Source: a virus
Reading direction: 5' to 3' (one strand)
Virus record (IMG/VR): IMGVR_UViG_3300031143_000770
Coordinates: 1-51,290 of that record
DNA length: 51,290 nucleotides
Below are positions 8,174 to 44,057 of the stretch, piece after piece (within the stretch, counting starts at the first letter, position 1; every line of letters begins with the position of its first letter). The notes beneath the pieces were generated by a model. The model was not told the DNA's origin and ran no database searches. It saw only the letters and a list, made by a program, of their open reading frames with translations. Both the position numbers and the translations under genes were made by a program.

Positions 8174-9047
8174 ATACAGTGAAGCATTCTATTCGCTTCA
8201 AGGTGAAGGTAAATTTGTAGGTGTGCCTAGTGTATTCTTGCGTACTTTCGGTTGCAATTTTCGCTGCAAATCATTTTCAATGTCGAGTGAAGAACGTGAA
8301 TCTATCAAAGACGAACGATACAATCCAGAAGTAAAGAAATTGATTGATGATGGTGTACATATAAATGCTACGCTATTGGAAGACTTACCTATCATTCATA
8401 CAGGCTGTGATACATACGCGAGTATCTACCCAGAGTTCAAGCACTTGATGTTTGATCGTACTGTAGATGAAGTAGTTGATCACTTGTTATCGCTTACGCC
8501 AAACGGTAAGTGGATGATGGATAATGGTCAAGATATTCACTTAGTGATTACTGGTGGCGAACCTTTATTGGCATGGCAACGTATGTATGTGGATATATTT
8601 GAACATCCTCGTATGAGTGATTTAAGAAATGTTACATTTGAAACAAACACAACTCAGTCATTACATGACGAGTTATTTGAATATCTAGATAATAAAGATA
8701 CAATCACAGTAACGTGGAGTTGTTCACCTAAACTATTGGTTAGTGGCGAATCTCATGAAGATGCGATTAAGCCTGGTGTTGCTGTTCAGTATCGTCTAGT
8801 TACTGGTAATAATTTATATCTTAAATTTGTTGTATCTAATGCGGCAGATGTAGCAGAAGTAGATGAGGTAGTGACAGAGTATCGTAATTTTGGTATTGAA
8901 TGTCCTGTATATCTTATGCCAATAGGTGGTCGCTCAGAAGAGTACGATTTATCAGTAAGAGATATTGCACAGTTGGCATTAGAAAAAGGTTATAGATTTA
9001 GCCCAAGATTGCACATAGATTTATATGGTAATAATTGGGGTACATAA
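8163..9047 (+). CDS. queE: 7-carboxy-7-deazaguanine synthase, variant cluster motif
   Basis: Radical SAM enzyme converting carboxy-tetrahydropterin to 7-carboxy-7-deazaguanine in preQ0 synthesis. Diagnostic blocks are the N-terminal FYSLQGEGKFVGVPSVFLRTFG and the SAM-binding ITGGEP. The Fe-S motif is unusual: Cys31 and Cys35 fit CxxxCxxC, but the third position is Phe38. A cysteine further on (Cys82, in HTGCDTYAS) may supply the third ligand. At 294 residues it is longer than cellular QueE. The start is the ATG at 8163, inside the MazG-like gene; the TTG one codon earlier is not needed. Confidence 0.85.
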   Translation: MKLRYSEAFYSLQGEGKFVGVPSVFLRTFGCNFRCKSFSMSSEERESIKDERYNPEVKKLIDDGVHINATLLEDLPIIHTGCDTYASIYPEFKHLMFDRTVDEVVDHLLSLTPNGKWMMDNGQDIHLVITGGEPLLAWQRMYVDIFEHPRMSDLRNVTFETNTTQSLHDELFEYLDNKDTITVTWSCSPKLLVSGESHEDAIKPGVAVQYRLVTGNNLYLKFVVSNAADVAEVDEVVTEYRNFGIECPVYLMPIGGRSEEYDLSVRDIAQLALEKGYRFSPRLHIDLYGNNWGT

Positions 9048-9050
9048 ATA
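9043..9050 (+). promoter_or_regulatory. T4-like late promoter box (CATAAATA)
   Basis: CATAAATA 38 nt before the metK start, overlapping the end of queE. It resembles the T4 late -10 element TATAAATA. Confidence 0.5.
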
Positions 9051-9088
9051 GTACAAGCAATATAAAATGGAGATTTACAAAACAAATT

Positions 9089-10186
9089 ATGAATAATTAT
9101 ATTTTTACAAGTGAAAGTGTTAGCGAAGGACATCCCGACAAAGTAGCAGATCAAATATCTGATGCGCTTGTTGATGCAGGATTTAAAGTCGGCAATGAAA
9201 CCACACGTGTCGCAATTGAGACATTAGTTACTACCAATATGGTTACAGTTGCAGGAGAGGTTAAAAACTTCTTTGTAACAAATCAAGAAGTAGAGCAAAT
9301 AATTCGTGATACGGTTCGTAGAATTGGTTATGAACAAGATGGTTTTCATTGGGAAGTTATAGAGATACATAATGTTATACATACGCAAAGTGATGATATT
9401 GCATTAGGCACAGATGACTTTGGTGCAGGTGATCAGGGCATCATGTTTGGTTACGCATGCAATGACAATGATGCATATCTACCAGCACCAATTTACTACG
9501 CACATGAAGTTCTAAAAGCATTACAGAGAGTAAAATCATCAGAATCAATTGATCCCATATTGGGACCAGATGCAAAGTCGCAAGTATCAGTAGAATACAA
9601 AGATGGCAAAGTATCGCGTATTGACCAAGTAGTTATTTCAACACAGCATAAAGAAGGTCGTTACATAGAAGCATGCATTCTTGCTAGGAATGCAGCAGAA
9701 ATTGTATTGAAAGGTTTAATTGACAACGATACTGTGTGGCATATCAATCCTACGGGTAATTTTGTTATTGGAGGACCTGATGGCGATACTGGTGTTACTG
9801 GTCGTAAGATCATTGTAGATACATATGGTGGTTTTGCACCGCATGGTGGTGGTGCATTTAGTGGTAAAGATCCTACTAAGGTAGATCGTAGTGCAGCGTA
9901 TATGGCACGATGGTTGGCAAAGAATGTAGTAGCAAGTAAGATGGCTACATGGTGTCAGATTCAATTGAGTTATGCTATTGGTGTTAAAGAGCCTACTAGT
10001 ATCTACATTGATAGTGATGGTAGTAACAGTGAGATTGAGTCATTCATTCGTGATAATATTGATTTAACACCGAAGGCTATTATTGATAGGTTTGATTTAT
10101 TTAACTTTACTGACTATAGCACCAACTGCGTGTATGGTCATTTTGGAAACAAAGATGTTCCGTGGGAAAAGATTGGTTGGGAATAG
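9089..10186 (+). CDS. metK: S-adenosylmethionine synthetase
   Basis: Makes SAM from ATP and methionine. The full-length 365-residue protein has the N-terminal FTSESVSEGHPDKVADQISDA motif, the GAGDQGIMFGYA hexapeptide region, and the GPDGDTGVTGRK and GGGAFSGKDPTKVDRSAAY blocks, so it should be active. I start at the ATG at 9089, where family homology begins; the frame is open 54 nt further upstream. The window holds five radical SAM loci, a MTA/SAH nucleosidase and an IscA-type carrier, so a phage-owned SAM supply makes sense. Confidence 0.95.
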   Translation: MNNYIFTSESVSEGHPDKVADQISDALVDAGFKVGNETTRVAIETLVTTNMVTVAGEVKNFFVTNQEVEQIIRDTVRRIGYEQDGFHWEVIEIHNVIHTQSDDIALGTDDFGAGDQGIMFGYACNDNDAYLPAPIYYAHEVLKALQRVKSSESIDPILGPDAKSQVSVEYKDGKVSRIDQVVISTQHKEGRYIEACILARNAAEIVLKGLIDNDTVWHINPTGNFVIGGPDGDTGVTGRKIIVDTYGGFAPHGGGAFSGKDPTKVDRSAAYMARWLAKNVVASKMATWCQIQLSYAIGVKEPTSIYIDSDGSNSEIESFIRDNIDLTPKAIIDRFDLFNFTDYSTNCVYGHFGNKDVPWEKIGWE

Positions 10187-22026: not shown

Positions 22027-23460
22027 ATGACAGAAAAGAAATTACCATCAGATACGTTTTGTATTCTACCTTGGATACATTTGAGTACTCGCCCAGACGG
22101 CAGTATGAGAGTATGTTGTACAGCAAATGCAAGTAGTGTTGGTGCAACAAATGATAAAGTTCACGGTGGGCGAGTTGGCATTGTTAAGACAGATGATGGT
22201 AAGCCTGCAAACCTAAACAACAGTGACTTGTCTAGTGCATGGAACAATAGTTACATGCGTGGTGTACGTCAACAAATGCTTGCAGGAGAAAAGCCTGCTA
22301 GTTGTTTGAAATGTTACAAAGAAGAAGATGCAGGACATCGATCTAAGCGACAGTGGGAAACCCAGTACTGGATGCGTGATGGAATTGATGTTGATGAACT
22401 TGTTAAAGAAACATATGAAGACGGTTCAACTGATTCAAAACTACGATACATTGATATCCGTATGGGTACTAAATGCCAACTTGGTTGCGTTATGTGTAGT
22501 CCACACGATTCATCAGGATGGGTAAAAGATTGGAATAAGTTGTATCCACAGATTACCAATGAGTCACTAAAAGAAACAATGTCTTGGGATGATAAAGGCA
22601 AGCAGTTTGGTGCTAATTATAACTGGCATAAAAACAACCCACAGTTTTGGGAACAATTTTATGCTCAAATTCCATTCATGCGTCAACTATACTTTGCAGG
22701 CGGCGAATCGACGGTTATCGAAGAGCATTATGAAATCCTAGATAAAGTTATTGAAATGGGTTATGCATCTCAGATTGAGTTGCGTTACAACAGTAATGGC
22801 ATTGAATTGCCTGATCGTCTACTAGAGCAATGGAAGCATTTCCAAAAGGTACGTTTCCATTATAGTATTGACAGTATTGGTGAAATGAATGATTATATTC
22901 GTTACCCAAGTGAATGGTCACATCAACTTGCAATGTTTGAGCGTCTTGATACACAGACTTCTAACAACGTAGAGATTACAATCGCGTGTGCAGTTAACGC
23001 ACTAAACATTCACTACATTCCAGACTTCCTTAAATGGAAACTGCAATCAGACTTGAAGAAGACAAACATGTGGCCCTTTGGCGCTGGTGGTATTAACTAT
23101 CACTTTGTATACTGGCCAGGACATTTGAATGTCAAGGTATTGCCAGATGAGTTCTTAGACAAAACCGAAGCGAAGTATGAAGAGTTCATTGCATGGTGGA
23201 AAGAGAATTGGGAACTAGGTGTTCCAAGTTGGCACAAGGGTAAAGTAGATTATCAGACATGGGAAGATGCTGAATATGGCATCAAGCGTTTACGTGGTAT
23301 GATTAGTTTTGCTCGTAGTGAAGATTGGAGTCAGCGATTACCAGAGTTTAGAGAATACATTAACAAACTAGACGAGATGCGCGGCACCGATTTCAGAAAA
23401 ACATTTGCAGACATGGCTTACTTATTAGACGAGCCTACAGAGGACAATGATAGTGACTGA
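22027..23460 (+). CDS. Twitch-domain radical SAM enzyme (first of two)
   Basis: A 477-residue radical SAM protein. The radical cluster motif is Cys150-x3-Cys154-x2-Cys157 (KCQLGCVMC), and FAGGEST acts as the GGE SAM-binding motif. An N-terminal cysteine-bearing module (FCILPWIHLSTRPDGSMRVCC, later CLKC) resembles the SPASM/twitch auxiliary Fe-S domain, placed before the core rather than after it. Such enzymes modify peptides or sugars; the target is unknown. It overlaps the nucleosidase gene, which could remove its 5'-deoxyadenosine product. Confidence 0.82.
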   Translation: MTEKKLPSDTFCILPWIHLSTRPDGSMRVCCTANASSVGATNDKVHGGRVGIVKTDDGKPANLNNSDLSSAWNNSYMRGVRQQMLAGEKPASCLKCYKEEDAGHRSKRQWETQYWMRDGIDVDELVKETYEDGSTDSKLRYIDIRMGTKCQLGCVMCSPHDSSGWVKDWNKLYPQITNESLKETMSWDDKGKQFGANYNWHKNNPQFWEQFYAQIPFMRQLYFAGGESTVIEEHYEILDKVIEMGYASQIELRYNSNGIELPDRLLEQWKHFQKVRFHYSIDSIGEMNDYIRYPSEWSHQLAMFERLDTQTSNNVEITIACAVNALNIHYIPDFLKWKLQSDLKKTNMWPFGAGGINYHFVYWPGHLNVKVLPDEFLDKTEAKYEEFIAWWKENWELGVPSWHKGKVDYQTWEDAEYGIKRLRGMISFARSEDWSQRLPEFREYINKLDEMRGTDFRKTFADMAYLLDEPTEDNDSD

Positions 23461-28325: not shown

Positions 28326-28367
28326 GTTTATATTAGACAGAACTGTAACGTATATCTGACCTTGTTC

Positions 28368-28514
28368 TAGACAAAAGGGTTTGGGTTGTAGCGCAGTCTG
28401 GGAGAAGCGTCTATCCTCGGTGATGTAGCATTAGATTAATTACCTAATACCCTGCATTACATAGATAGAAGGTCGTGGGTTCGAATCCCTCCAACTCCGT
28501 TAGAGTTTTGTCTA
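28368..28514 (+). ncRNA. Stem-closed region around the Pro-type tRNA
   Basis: tagacaaaa (28368-28376) pairs perfectly with ttttgtcta (28506-28514) and encloses the tRNA-Pro-like gene. A second copy of the left arm, atattagaca (28330-28339), can instead pair with tgtctaatat (28509-28518). Confidence 0.5.
28382..28499 (+). tRNA. tRNA-Pro(CGG)-like gene with a 41-nt anticodon-loop insertion
   Basis: D-arm, T-arm (loop TTCGAAT) and acceptor (six of seven pairs) match tRNA-Pro. The anticodon stem ctatc/gatag encloses 48 nt instead of 7. The loop reads C-T-CGG, then about 41 extra nt that fold on themselves (atgta/tacat, ttag/ctaa). No CCA is encoded. It could be an intron-like insertion or a decayed gene. 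Confidence 0.5.
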
Positions 28515-28515
28515 A

Positions 28516-28523
28516 TATAAATA
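28516..28523 (+). promoter_or_regulatory. T4-like late promoter box (TATAAATA)
   Basis: An exact TATAAATA 27 nt before the 28551 start. Confidence 0.55.
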
Positions 28524-29599: not shown

Positions 29600-29653
29600 T
29601 TAGAGATAGTGTATATCTCGTGTCTTTTATTAGATATAAAAATACAATTTAAT

Positions 29654-29726
29654 ACTCTTGCCAGTGGAACTGGCAGTTGGGTTTCGACCCCGACTTGCGA
29701 ATGTTCGATTCATTCCAGGAGTGCCA
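29654..29726 (+). tRNA. tRNA-Arg(TCG) with compact D-arm
   Basis: Acceptor actcttg/caggagt, G73-CCA, anticodon loop TTTCGAC, T-arm gaatg/cattc with loop TTCGATT. The D-arm is a tight hairpin gccag-tggaa-ctggc with no 8-9 linker, which is unusual. Confidence 0.72.
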
Positions 29727-29728
29727 AA

Positions 29729-29862
29729 TTTACTATGCTGGCTGCCGTCTACGTTTCCGGAAACTGACGTTAAATATTGAGGTTCAACTCCTCGGATACA
29801 TTAAGGAAGGCTTGGTGTATCGCGTTACAGGCAACGTAAGGGTTCGACTCCCAAATAGTAAA
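29729..29862 (+). tRNA. Composite tRNA-like element with two T-arms
   Basis: An 8-bp outer stem tttactat/atagtaaa encloses 118 nt holding two T-arm hairpins, tgagg-TTCAACT-cctcg (near 29778) and ggg-TTCGACT-ccc (near 29840), plus the palindrome gtttccggaaac. It is too long for one tRNA and looks like a fusion of two tRNA genes. Amino-acid identity not assignable. Confidence 0.35.
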
Positions 29863-29873
29863 CCGCTTTGATG

Positions 29874-29950
29874 GTGATCGTAGCATAACTGGCAAATGCC
29901 CAAGGTTGTGAACCTTGTAGATCCGGGATCATACCCCGGCGATCACACCA
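29874..29950 (+). tRNA. tRNA-His(GTG) with A73
   Basis: Acceptor gtgatcg/cgatcac, A73-CCA, anticodon stem caagg/ccttg with loop TTGTGAA. The T-loop is ATCATAC. Discriminator A73 is atypical for bacterial tRNA-His (normally C73 opposite G-1). Confidence 0.85.
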
Positions 29951-29960
29951 CTTATTTTAT

Positions 29961-30046
29961 GGAAGATGATCTAGTCTGGGACTAGGATGACTTGCTAAGT
30001 CAATCGGCTCGAAAGGGTTTGGGATCGTAACCTACTTCTTCCGCCA
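29961..30046 (+). tRNA. tRNA-Ser(GCT)
   Basis: Acceptor ggaagat/ttcttcc (six pairs), G73-CCA, anticodon loop TTGCTAA, long variable arm. T-loop ATCGTAA has A54. Confidence 0.78.
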
Positions 30047-30052
30047 CTTTTA

Positions 30053-30129
30053 GCGCGGTTGCCAGAGTAGCCAACGGAGCGGCTTGCAAACCCGTACAAC
30101 CATCGGTGCAAATCCGATACCGCGCTCCA
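30053..30129 (+). tRNA. tRNA-Cys(GCA)
   Basis: Perfect acceptor gcgcggt/accgcgc, U73-CCA as expected for Cys, anticodon loop TTGCAAA. T-loop TGCAAAT departs from TTC. Confidence 0.85.
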
Positions 30130-30136
30130 ATTTTAA

Positions 30137-30168
30137 GTTCCGTTCGTCTATCGGTTAGGACATACGGG
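30137..30168 (+). pseudogene. Orphan 5' half of a tRNA-Glu-like gene
   Basis: GTTCCGTTCGTCTATCGGTT and the following AGGACAT match the 5' half (acceptor strand and D-arm) of bacterial tRNA-Glu. No matching 3' half follows; a complete tRNA-Glu starts 10 nt later. Confidence 0.6.
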
Positions 30169-30873: not shown

Positions 30874-31197
30874 ATGGCAATTACATTATCTAAAGAAGCA
30901 TCAGAGCGCATATCAGATTACATGATCAACAGAGGACCTACGTACGGTGTACGTGTAGGTGTAAGAACAACAGGTTGTTCTGGTCTTGCATACATAGTAG
31001 AGTTTGTCGATAATATTGACGAGAATGATACAGTCTTTGTATCAAATGAAATAAGTATTGTAGTAGATCCTAAAGGTTTAACATACCTTGACGGTACTGA
31101 GTTGGATTATGGACGTGATGGACTCAACGAAGGATTCAGATTTAATAATCCAAACGCAAAAGACGAATGCGGTTGTGGCGAAAGTTTCACTGTATAA
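30874..31197 (+). CDS. A-type iron-sulfur carrier protein (IscA/ErpA family)
   Basis: A 107-residue protein with the three conserved cluster cysteines: Cys35 in TTGCSGLAY and Cys99/Cys101 in ECGCGESF. The family block ISIVVDPKGLTYLDGTELDY is complete. It delivers Fe-S clusters to apo-enzymes. Five 4Fe-4S radical SAM loci lie in the window, so they are the probable clients. It is isolated within the tRNA island and has a good ribosome site (aggagaa). Confidence 0.93.
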   Translation: MAITLSKEASERISDYMINRGPTYGVRVGVRTTGCSGLAYIVEFVDNIDENDTVFVSNEISIVVDPKGLTYLDGTELDYGRDGLNEGFRFNNPNAKDECGCGESFTV

Positions 31198-31357: not shown

Positions 31358-31386
31358 TTGACAATAGTTAATAAGTTTGATATAAT
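31358..31386 (+). promoter_or_regulatory. Sigma70-type promoter upstream of RNA element A
   Basis: TTGACA (31358-31363), 17-nt spacer, TATAAT (31381-31386); expected start near 31393. Confidence 0.87.
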
Positions 31387-31431
31387 AGTAGAACAAGTTG
31401 AGAGATCAACACGCTCTTTAAAAATAGTTTG

Positions 31432-31527
31432 TTTTAATATGTATTATTGTTGATGAAAGTAGGGCTTGATGTTGGAAGTAGAACCATTAAGGTGTCTGAC
31501 GATAGTTAACAATAATATATTTTAAAA
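31432..31527 (+). ncRNA. Structured RNA element A
   Basis: A closing stem of about 20 bp, built around tattattgtt (31442-31451) and aacaataata (31508-31517), continues outward with one mismatch. It encloses about 50 nt. The tail acgatagttaa is shared with element C. No ORF. A promoter lies just upstream. Confidence 0.55.
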
Positions 31528-31543
31528 TGAATTAAAATAGTTA

Positions 31544-31572
31544 TTGACATTGTTATGAAACTTTGTTATACT
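31544..31572 (+). promoter_or_regulatory. Sigma70-type promoter upstream of RNA elements B and C
   Basis: TTGACA (31544-31549), 17-nt spacer, TATACT (31567-31572). The expected start falls about 5-10 nt before element B. Confidence 0.87.
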
Positions 31573-31583
31573 ATTAAAGTGTT

Positions 31584-31737
31584 CTTTTGTATACACATTA
31601 GGTAGATACTGATTTTAGTAGGTATGGTGATTCGTGCTGAACGTTGAAGGGAATCGCTAAATGACAAGGGACTTGCTGTGTGGGATTAATCATCCCTGTC
31701 GTAGACAAGCGGTTGTTAAATAATGTGTATGCAAAAG
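31584..31737 (+). ncRNA. Structured RNA element B
   Basis: A 154-nt region closed by a 17-bp stem, cttttgtatacacatta (31584-31600) with taatgtgtatgcaaaag (31721-31737). A 35-nt core at 31633-31667 matches element C at 31 of 35 positions. An internal hairpin gggat-TAATC-atccc (31682-31696) has its counterpart in C. No ORF and no tRNA fold. Confidence 0.7.
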
Positions 31738-31740
31738 TGT

Positions 31741-31899
31741 ATTTTAATATATGCTATTGGGTAGAGCCAGATCGTAGTAAGCATAAGGGTGCGTGCTGAA
31801 ATTTGAAGGGAATCGCTGAACGACAATAGGTTTAATGTATACAGACTAATCCCTGTATATTGGAACCAACGATAGTTAAACGATAGTATATTTTAAAGT
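31741..31899 (+). ncRNA. Structured RNA element C (paralogue of B)
   Basis: A 159-nt region closed by a 19-position stem between 31741-31759 and 31881-31899 (one mismatch), of different sequence from B's stem. The shared core is at 31792-31826, exactly as far from the stem as in B. The internal hairpin tatacag/ctgtata (31838-31859) keeps TAATC in its loop although its stem sequence differs from B. Confidence 0.7.
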
Positions 31900-31920: not shown

Positions 31921-31996
31921 TCCTGAATAGCTCAGTTGGTAGAGCAGTAGACTGTTAATCTATTTGTCGTTGGTTCGAGCCCAACTTCAGGAGCCA
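31921..31996 (+). tRNA. tRNA-Asn(GTT)
   Basis: Perfect acceptor tcctgaa/ttcagga, G73-CCA, D-arm gctc/gagc, anticodon loop CTGTTAA, T-arm gttgg-TTCGAGC-ccaac. Canonical. Confidence 0.93.
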
Positions 31997-32176: not shown

Positions 32177-32312
32177 AAAGTAGTATTAAGTAGTTACCCT
32201 AGCGGCTCATAAGAGAGAGTCGGTTCATTGCATATAGTTACAGTTATGTGTAGTCAGCGAAATGTGCATCTGTAAGTGCATGTAGACTCGGCTAACTTCT
32301 TAATATTATTTT
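32177..32312 (+). ncRNA. Structured RNA element D
   Basis: 136 nt closed by 19 of 20 paired positions between 32177-32196 and 32293-32312. It has the same layout as elements A-C (long AT-rich closing stem, about 100-nt interior) but no clear sequence match to their core. Confidence 0.5.
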
Positions 32313-32789: not shown

Positions 32790-32859
32790 ATCATCATTTG
32801 CCAATTGGTAAGGTTAGGCGAAGTAGTCGTTACTGGTTCGATTCCAGTTGGTGATACCA
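32790..32859 (+). tRNA. Shortened tRNA, anticodon not assignable
   Basis: Acceptor atcatca/tggtgat with A-CCA and a canonical T-arm actgg-TTCGATT-ccagt. The anticodon arm (ggcga/tcgtt, about 5-nt loop) and variable loop are too short. Probably a deleted tRNA gene. Confidence 0.5.
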
Positions 32860-32866
32860 ATTTTAA

Positions 32867-32939
32867 TGCGGGATGCTAAGGTATGCACTCCGGGCTCATA
32901 ACCCGCGAGGTTGAGTTTCGATTACTCTTTCCGCTACCA
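32867..32939 (+). tRNA. Probable initiator tRNA-fMet(CAT)
   Basis: The anticodon arm cggg-CTCATAA-cccg carries the three G-C pairs (29-31:39-41) typical of bacterial initiators. Positions 1 and 72 are an unpaired T-T, another initiator trait. Acceptor gcggga/ttccgc otherwise pairs; A73-CCA is encoded. The D-arm is unusually short. Confidence 0.72.
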
Positions 32940-32944
32940 CATTA

Positions 32945-33069: not shown

Positions 33070-33160
33070 CGCTTCTGTTATCGTGACATACAACGACAAC
33101 GATAGCGTTACACTCGTAACAAATACATGTTAATTATGCGAGTTGACGATAACAGAGGCG
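33070..33160 (+). ncRNA. Structured RNA element F
   Basis: 91 nt closed by a 15-bp stem (cgcttctgttatcgt, 33070-33084, with acgataacagaggcg, 33146-33160, one G-U). Inside, actcg (33112-33116) pairs with cgagt (33139-33143), competing with gttac/gtaac. No ORF, no tRNA fold. Confidence 0.55.
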
Positions 33161-34900: not shown

Positions 34901-34976
34901 GGGGATATAGCTCAGTTGGGAGAGCGACTGCCTTGCACGCAGTAGGTCGTAGGTTCGATCCCTATTATCTCCACCA
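34901..34976 (+). tRNA. tRNA-Ala(TGC), copy 1
   Basis: Acceptor ggggata/tatctcc with A-CCA, anticodon loop CTTGCAC, T-loop TTCGATC. Canonical. Confidence 0.95.
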
Positions 34977-35025: not shown

Positions 35026-35101
35026 GGGGATATAGCTCAGTTGGGAGAGCGACTGCCTTGCACGCAGTAGGTCGTAGGTTCGATCCCTATTATCTCCACC
35101 A
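35026..35101 (+). tRNA. tRNA-Ala(TGC), copy 2
   Basis: Identical to copy 1. The leader taaataaagtagnaagtatg is also repeated, so the two form a tandem duplication of about 125-130 bp. Confidence 0.95.
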
Positions 35102-42391: not shown

Positions 42392-42831
42392 AGCAAGACA
42401 ACAGTAGTTATACAATAACAAATCCTGATCTATTTTTAACAAATGATGGGATTTCTGTATTAATCACGAGTACTAACAAAGAATTCATTGACGAAGTAAA
42501 ATTAATAGTAGAGCATCACATTGAACATAGTATTGTGTTTAATGTGCAGCCTTCTAGCACCACCGAAACAGGTGTTCCCTGGATGTGGTATGTGAGTCGT
42601 GCAGTTGACATTATGTTTGTTGATTTAGACACATGTGCTTGGGTAGACATTTGTACTGCATTGACAAAAGAACAGGATGATAATCATGTTGTTGTGTTTT
42701 TTAGTGACAGGAACAAAAAACGCGATGCTATTAAATTGATAAATGCAACGAGTAAGTATATTATACTGAAAGATATTAAAGAGATCAGTGCATACATGGA
42801 AACACATGTTCAACTGTCTGCTCCTTTATGA
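42388..42831 (+). CDS. Hypothetical protein, 147 aa, possibly receiver-like
   Basis: The protein alternates hydrophobic strands and helices (SVLITSTNKEFIDEV, DIMFVDLDTCAW, HVVVFFSDRNKKRDA, KYIILKDIKE), in an order reminiscent of a response-regulator receiver domain. No clear phosphorylation triad can be confirmed. It overlaps both the membrane protein and clpX by 4 bp, so the three are probably coupled. Confidence 0.5.
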   Translation: MKQDNSSYTITNPDLFLTNDGISVLITSTNKEFIDEVKLIVEHHIEHSIVFNVQPSSTTETGVPWMWYVSRAVDIMFVDLDTCAWVDICTALTKEQDDNHVVVFFSDRNKKRDAIKLINATSKYIILKDIKEISAYMETHVQLSAPL

Positions 42832-44057
42832 CAGAAATGTTAAAATGCGCATTTTGTCATAAGACACAAAAGCAAGTTTCTAAGTTACTTGCTGGCATAG
42901 ACGAGCACATTTATATTTGTAATAAATGTGTTCATTTGTCGCACAGCATTTTAGAGAAAGAAGATAAAACAAAAACACTCAAAGATAAGAAACGTAAGTT
43001 ACGTGATATTTTTGATACTGTCCCACCTAAACAAGTCCATGAATATTTAAACGAACATGTGATTGGTCAAGAAAAAGTTAAGAAAGGAATTAGTGTAGCA
43101 ATATACAATCATTGTAAGCGAATCTTTAATGACACCACTGTAAAAGTACAAAAATCAAATGTATTACTATTGGGTCCTACAGGTGTTGGTAAAACACTTA
43201 TTGCACAAACGCTAGCAAGTTCAATGGATGTGCCATTCGTCATTACAGATGCAACTACGATTACTGAAAGTGGTTATGCTGGAGATGATGCAGAAGTATT
43301 GATACATAAGTTATTCCAAAATTCTGATTATGATATTGCACGAACCGAGATTGGTATCATCTACGTAGATGAGATAGACAAGAAAGCCAAGCGTAATGAC
43401 ATGGTAAGTTTAAGTCGTGATGTATCAGGCGAAGGTGTTCAACAAAGTTTACTGAAACTCATGGAAGGCACCACCATCGCAGTACCTAATAAACATGATA
43501 GATCTCCTGAAAAAATAGATATAAATACAGAGAACATCTTATTCATTGTGGGCGGTGCTTTTATTGGATTAGAGAAAGTAGTTGAGCAGCGTCTAGGTAA
43601 ATCAAAAATAGGATTTACTGGAAAAATGGCAAGCAAAGATTATAATTGGGAAGATGAACTTGAAACGAGTGATCTAGTTCAATATGGTCTAATACCAGAA
43701 TTCTTAGGAAGATTACCATCAGTTAATGTATTACATGAATTATCTAAAGATGATTTGGTGCGTGTGTTGACTGAACCGAAAAATAGTATTGTAAAGCAAT
43801 ATCAAGCATTATTTGAATTAGATAATGTTAGTTTAGAATTTAAGCCATCTGCATTAAGAGCAATCGCAGAGACTTCTATTAAGCAAGATCTAGGTGCAAG
43901 GGGATTACGCAAAATAATCGACAATGCACTCATTGATACACAATATGAATTACCCGATCTTGTAAGACAGGGCGTTCAGAAGATTATTATTAGTGAAGAA
44001 ACTATAACTAGAGGAACAACACCACACATGATCAAAGGATCCATAAGTGAAAAATAA
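42828..44057 (+). CDS. clpX: ATP-dependent Clp protease ATP-binding subunit ClpX
   Basis: A 409-residue ClpX. The N-terminal zinc domain has Cys7, Cys10, Cys31 and Cys34. Walker A is GPTGVGKT (116-123), Walker B IIYVDEID, and the pore loop GYAG is in ESGYAGDDAE. The ClpP-docking IGF tripeptide is in KSKIGFTGK, and a C-terminal GARGLRKI follows. All parts of a working unfoldase are present, including the loop that binds ClpP, so it can pair with phage ClpP (38111) or the host's. It overlaps the IF-3 gene by 11 bp. Confidence 0.95.
   Translation: MTEMLKCAFCHKTQKQVSKLLAGIDEHIYICNKCVHLSHSILEKEDKTKTLKDKKRKLRDIFDTVPPKQVHEYLNEHVIGQEKVKKGISVAIYNHCKRIFNDTTVKVQKSNVLLLGPTGVGKTLIAQTLASSMDVPFVITDATTITESGYAGDDAEVLIHKLFQNSDYDIARTEIGIIYVDEIDKKAKRNDMVSLSRDVSGEGVQQSLLKLMEGTTIAVPNKHDRSPEKIDINTENILFIVGGAFIGLEKVVEQRLGKSKIGFTGKMASKDYNWEDELETSDLVQYGLIPEFLGRLPSVNVLHELSKDDLVRVLTEPKNSIVKQYQALFELDNVSLEFKPSALRAIAETSIKQDLGARGLRKIIDNALIDTQYELPDLVRQGVQKIIISEETITRGTTPHMIKGSISEK

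Follow-up and report, generated by a model that had tools for sequence, protein, structure and literature searches.

Two adjacent elements in the tRNA array of a marine phage, B and C, are real structured RNAs whose structure is under selection, as shown by homologues in two other phages and by covariation, which extends over the closing helix and the two hairpins. Selected structure had been proposed in the initial annotation from the sequences of B and C. Together with a shortened third copy, A, these elements match no known RNA family and are members of a new family of structured RNAs from phages.

Elements B and C

The window analyzed here (51,290 nt) is an IMG/VR virus record that is described as a marine phage, and contigs 3300031647_000750 (192 kb), 3300031140_000597 and 3300031688_001404 are near-identical to it. 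The tRNA array spans ~29.3-35.2 kb of the window and contains 18 tRNAs as called by ARAGORN. B and C are situated between a HesB-like gene and tRNA-Asn, with the following features.

30874-31197: HesB-like gene (Fe-S_biosyn match)
31544-31572, + strand: promoter TTGACA-17-TATACT, just 5' of B
31584-31737, + strand: element B, structured non-coding RNA with a 120-nt interior (31601-31720)
31584-31600/31721-31737, + strand: closing helix P1 of B (17/17 pairs)
31617-31641, + strand: arm 1 of B (AGUA at 31617-31620, GAA at 31639-31641)
31621-31625/31634-31638, + strand: hairpin P2b of B, GGUAU/GUGCU
31633-31667, + strand: conserved core of B (31/35 identical to C)
31682-31696, + strand: hairpin P3b in arm 2 of B, GGGAU-UAAUC-AUCCC
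31741-31899, + strand: element C, paralogous structured RNA with a 121-nt interior (31760-31880), directly 5' of tRNA-Asn
31741-31759/31881-31899, + strand: closing stem of C (18/19 pairs)
31776-31800, + strand: arm 1 of C (AGUA, hairpin P2b AGCAU/GUGCU, GAA)
31837-31860, + strand: hairpin P3b in arm 2 of C (8 bp, loop ACUAAUCC)
31921-31996, + strand: tRNA-Asn(GUU), the gene 3' of an element in all three phages

The coordinates and counts that the initial annotation gave for B and C hold. The promoter that it placed 5' of B is the TTGACA-17-TATACT sequence listed above; the stem of B begins at 31584, so that a transcript from this promoter would start a few bases 5' of P1. The closing stems of 17-19 bp and unlike sequence are present in both elements, the core match of 31/35 was reproduced by direct reading, and the TAATC loops were found at 31687 and 31847. 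The region had further been described as lacking an ORF and a tRNA fold. Consistent with this, the longest ORF across B and C is 39 aa, without sign of a gene, and neither ARAGORN nor RF00005 called a tRNA at 31425-31899. Beyond these points we found the third copy A, an rrn-like boxB/boxA leader, the linkage to tRNA-Asn and an AGUA/UGAA motif.

When the closing stems were compared with 60 dinucleotide shuffles of each element, the score of B was 36 (shuffle maximum, 25) and that of C was 33 (shuffle maximum, 24). The folding z-scores were -3.5 for B and -3.1 for C. The two elements share 71 nt at 76% ungapped identity with an offset of 159 nt, and the 23-nt core occurs twice, compared with no occurrence in 100 shuffles.

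Homologues in other phages

Relatives of the phage were gathered via MetK and a radical-SAM protein, and their whole records were scanned with a covariance model (R1) built from B and C only. With this model, the calibration of which is rough, a match was detected in phage 3300028413_000003 (L347:1501-1659; 57.4 bits, E 1.9e-12) and two were detected on the minus strand of 3300031703_000599 (L348:1900-1753, 22.4 bits; L348:1623-1501, 18.1 bits). The copy at L348:1900-1753 was first spotted by eye and was then recovered by R1 with filters off. The aligned identity of the copies in these two phages to B or C was 39-58%.

Each of the three phages has a copy directly 5' of its tRNA-Asn(GUU), and 3300031703_000599 has another copy 3' of it. 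The tRNA-Asn of 3300031703_000599 differs from that of the window at one position by direct reading, whereas the adjoining element is ~43% identical to C. The constant position beside tRNA-Asn favors a cis role, in which the elements would be leaders or spacers that act on the tRNA transcript by insulating, folding or processing it, either as RNase III entry sites or as put-like RNAs that modify RNA polymerase. Such a role in the folding or processing of the tRNA transcript is the main rival to the trans-acting reading presented below. It also accords with closing stems that conserve pairing and not sequence, and with the long inverted repeats I3, I4, I6 and I12, which likewise frame spacers or tRNAs in the array. 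However, the conserved core and the AGUA/UGAA sequence exceed the needs of a stem that is merely cut, B and C form a tandem with its own promoter, and one copy is located after tRNA-Asn. We consider the cis role a serious candidate that is nonetheless somewhat unlikely.

DNA patterns of the core recovered only near-identical copies of the window phage from viral_contigs. A looser 15-base pattern was found in 36 further contigs with non-matching flanks, the best of which was unrelated on inspection. The core was not found in bacterial genomes, and a second covariance model, R2, had no match in 274 genomes of one bacterial class under strict filters. Blastn of the A-C stretch against phages returned AT-rich chance matches alone. 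No new members were detected by R1 in 50 further related records or by R2 in 45 related virus records and five bacterial genomes, and protein searches with HesB, DUF5591 and a neighbor of the G013 element yielded few relatives. Weak covariance-model matches (L362, L377, L376 and others) were judged to be chance.

Shared structure and covariation

The structural comparison covered six copies, drawn from three phages. The five other than A follow a common plan that consists of the closing helix P1, arm 1 and arm 2. P1 is long in this plan and short in one copy; in four copies the closing stems have 17/17, 18/19, 18/19 and 21/23 pairs. Arm 1 carries an AGUA/UGAA internal loop, which is invariant in the five-way alignment and is abutted by hairpin P2b, and hairpin P3b, in arm 2, has a YUARYC loop.

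The P2b sequences of the five copies are GGUAU/GUGCU, AGCAU/GUGCU, CAGAA/UUCUG, AGCGAGU/ACUCGUU and GUUG-GC/GC-CAAU. When P2b was anchored on AGUA and GAA, 5-6 of 6 pairs formed in every copy (n=5), with a chance of 0.003-0.037 each. The P3b stems of four copies are 5, 8, 8 and 8 bp long and all different, and that of the fifth copy (3300031703_000599) is 3 bp. Pair counts from the six-sequence alignment, which was fitted to the structure model, pointed in the same direction: 92.9% of the cells were paired, compared with 74.2% in shuffled and 34-45% in slid alignments, both sides had changed in 24 of 36 pairs, and none of 500 shuffles attained the observed value of either measure. Because of this fitting, the anchored P2b check, which is independent of the alignment, is the cleaner of the two. 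We regard the structure as well supported.

The same result bears on whether the elements are relics, that is, decayed tRNA or mobile-element sequence that survived by chance. Their rapid sequence change, and a near-identical phage from which the cassette is missing, would agree with this explanation, but decay would not give compensatory pairing across phages, and we consider it the least probable of all those weighed here.

The lower half of arm 1 has a different fold in each copy. The AGUA/UGAA loop has P2b on one side in five copies, and the helix on its opposite side varies between them. The bulged-G, or sarcin-ricin, motif typically shows AGUA facing GAA, and we read the loop as a candidate sarcin-ricin-like (bulged-G) motif. 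It does not have the GAGA tetraloop of the sarcin-ricin loop of 23S rRNA; further, sarcin-ricin/loop E is a local three-dimensional motif and not a family. The motif is modular and recurrent (PMC8450098).

Between the two hairpins, both B and C contain GAAGGGAAUCGCURAAYGACAA, as might be expected of a regulatory RNA that acts by antisense or other base pairing, using a conserved single strand to bind a target in the phage or host. This stretch, however, is lost in the most distant copy, and parts of it can pair within the RNA; a base-pairing regulator seems to us quite unlikely.

Element A and an rRNA-operon-like leader

A third paralogue was located 5' of B, preceded by the following sequences.

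31358-31386, + strand: sigma-70-type promoter TTGACA-17-TATAAT, 5' of A (12/12 match)
31397-31410, + strand: boxB-like hairpin GTTGA-GAGA-TCAAC, assigned by sequence
31410-31423, + strand: boxA-like element CACGCTCTTTAAAA, identical in phage 3300028413_000003
31425-31534, + strand: element A, shortened third paralogue with a long closing stem (covariance-model match at 31431-31528)

Although A was excluded from the B and C covariance model, the model detected it with 29.4 bits (E 2e-4 in 1.4 Mb). The folding z-score of A was -6.8, and its stem score was 41 compared with a shuffle maximum of 20. Most of the core is missing from A.

The rrnH leader of E. coli contains CTGCTCTTTAACAA, 143 nt 5' of 16S. 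The pattern GCTCTTTAAMA is expected to occur 0.03 times in the window. A boxA of the form GCTCTTTAAnA follows a promoter and a hairpin at 31413-31423 of the window and at L347:1371-1381 of 3300028413_000003. The leader of the latter phage consists of a promoter, the hairpin GCAAAC-AGCAAT-GTTTGC with a stem unlike that of the window, and then CACGCTCTTTAAAA; the boxB-like hairpins of the two phages have their position in common and nothing else. The boxA leader is absent from the third phage, 3300031703_000599, and an rRNA-operon-like leader of promoter, hairpin and boxA is present in two of the three phages. The boxA 11-mers in other records had no leader with promoter and hairpin and apparently lie in coding sequence.

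Two further pairings were observed, and a switch is a possible reading of them. In the window, the 3' arm of A (31510-31528) is able to pair with the 5' arm of C (31741-31759). In 3300028413_000003 the 5' arm of P1 can also pair with the upstream sequence GAAAGTAGAG (L347:1460-1518), so that two competing structures can form.

Comparison with known RNA families and systems

The initial annotation knew of no named family that matches, and Rfam 15 likewise had no match for B, C or the A-C stretch at E<=10. The sole exception was STnc320, which matched the other strand near A (E 5.9), far under the gathering score. T-box and other Rfam families gave no match.

The view that the elements are diverged 5S rRNA or directly mimic 5S, with the 120-nt Y shape, the rrn-like leader and the tRNA neighbors, would be consistent with the interiors of 120 and 121 nt and with the core GCTGAAnnTTGAAGGGAATCGC, which by eye resembles the 5S signature GCCGAACTCAGAAGTGAAACGC. 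However, RF00001 had no match in the window, and a purpose-built gamma-proteobacterial 5S model run with filters off gave at most 6.4 bits in A-C, off the 5S-like motif; the relatives scored no better than chance against the same model. Homology to 5S rRNA is ruled out, and we regard this explanation as a whole as very improbable.

RNA C and RNA D of T4 (species 1 and 2) are small stable RNAs, the roles of which are unknown (PMC3014915, PMC12685909). They are nearest in kind to B and C, as both form an adjacent pair (139 and 119 nt in T4) within a phage tRNA cluster. Unlike B and C, T4 RNA C has a tRNA-like T-arm at its end, and a long closing helix or boxA leader is not noted for RNA C and RNA D. 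Homology to the T4 RNAs was rejected, as R2 had no match in the whole T4 record; Vibrio phage D69 had no match either. GOLLD and ROOL, the functions of which are unknown, are structured non-coding RNAs that phages encode, in many cases near tRNA islands (PMC12286853). They resemble A-C in these respects, but both are elaborate and many GOLLD RNAs exceed 800 nt, whereas B and C are ~155 nt and match no Rfam model.

The cluster resembles an rRNA operon in the order of a promoter, a hairpin, boxA, an RNA with a closing helix of at least 17 bp, and then a tRNA. It differs in that none of the enclosed RNAs is a 16S, 23S or 5S rRNA and that no boxC was identified in it. The put RNA of HK022 is an antiterminator with two stem-loops and without a long closing helix. 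Like B and C, it is a structured phage RNA near a promoter, with a candidate cis effect on transcription; the long closing helix of B and C sets them apart from put as described.

Proposed mechanism

We tentatively favor, with less than even confidence, a reading in which B, C and the shortened A are stable RNAs from an rrn-like, antiterminated and stem-processed unit, the ~120-nt cores of which act in trans. Transcription of A-C would be driven by the strong sigma-70-type promoters. The boxB-like hairpin and boxA 3' of the A promoter would recruit host NusB/S10, and this recruitment could lead to processive antitermination through the untranslated tRNA array. By analogy with the leader-trailer helix of pre-rRNA, P1 would be cut by RNase III, freeing the ~120-nt core from tRNA-Asn. 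The freed core might then serve in trans as a binding platform, either in an RNP or as a decoy for a host factor of RNA binding, translation or RNA degradation.

The leader and the processing we infer from sequence. In rRNA operons, leader-trailer helices are cleaved by RNase III, boxA is both necessary and sufficient to recruit antitermination factors, and the formation of active 30S depends critically on a helix of >17 bp (Warner et al., PMC10250234). The rRNA-operon order of the cluster, taken with these findings, suggests Nus-type antitermination, RNase III excision and action in trans; RNase III processing at P1 is further suggested by the length of the helix and by pairing that is conserved without sequence. 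Action in trans is favored by the conserved core sequence, the tandem duplication and the separate promoter of B. The trans-acting core is the weakest step of the explanation, its target is a guess, and the closing stems could serve tRNA-transcript processing alone. A more general conjecture, which we consider unlikely, is that phage rRNA-operon-like units, with a boxB/boxA leader, leader-trailer helices and distal tRNAs, make small RNP-forming RNAs instead of rRNA, and that these engage the host machinery of ribosome assembly, translation or RNA decay in trans as mimics or decoys.

The stable RNAs of phage tRNA islands, such as T4 RNA C and RNA D, GOLLD and ROOL, pose an old open question. 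To this the A-C family contributes a compact design of three helices, the leader of which is likely of the rRNA style. It also raises the hypotheses that antitermination is Nus-dependent, that RNase III excises the RNAs and that proteins bind at a bulged-G site.

Accessory status

The radical-SAM gene of phage L127 shares 99% identity with that of the window phage, but the tRNA array of L127 is rearranged. In it, tRNA-Arg(UCU) comes directly after HesB, and A-B-C, tRNA-Asn, tRNA-Thr, tRNA-Asp and tRNA-Ser are all missing. In phage 3300034694_000239 (97%), no tRNA was called in the stretch examined. The gain or loss of the elements between near-identical phages and their rapid change beside a tRNA-Asn that differs at one position between two of the phages suggest an accessory role, which could be host-directed, and would also fit an arms race.

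Other features of the window

The tRNA array of the window seems to include degenerate or unusual tRNAs. Several sequences resembling tRNA, many of them CCA-ended, were left uncalled by ARAGORN at 29640-30140 and 32790-32940. At 28327-28521 a 24-nt inverted repeat (92%) surrounds a tRNA-like sequence that appears to carry a long insertion, which ARAGORN also did not call and which is found in phage L127 too. The spacer at 32177-32312 is structured, with 26-nt arms at 81% complementarity and three hairpins inside; it has no Rfam match and a four-way-junction fold of -43.5 kcal/mol, in which the MFE structure equals the centroid. A further candidate structured RNA lies at 33070-33160, where a 15-nt inverted repeat (93% complementary) closes a spacer with an inner hairpin. 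The stretches 9035-10186, 22027-23460 and 42828-44057 of the window encode a MetK-like protein, several radical-SAM proteins and a ClpX-like ATPase; a MetK scan of IMG/VR matched 500 stretches. The tRNA-Ala(UGC) gene is present in two identical copies (34901-34976 and 35026-35101), the flanks of which are similar; they represent a recent duplication.
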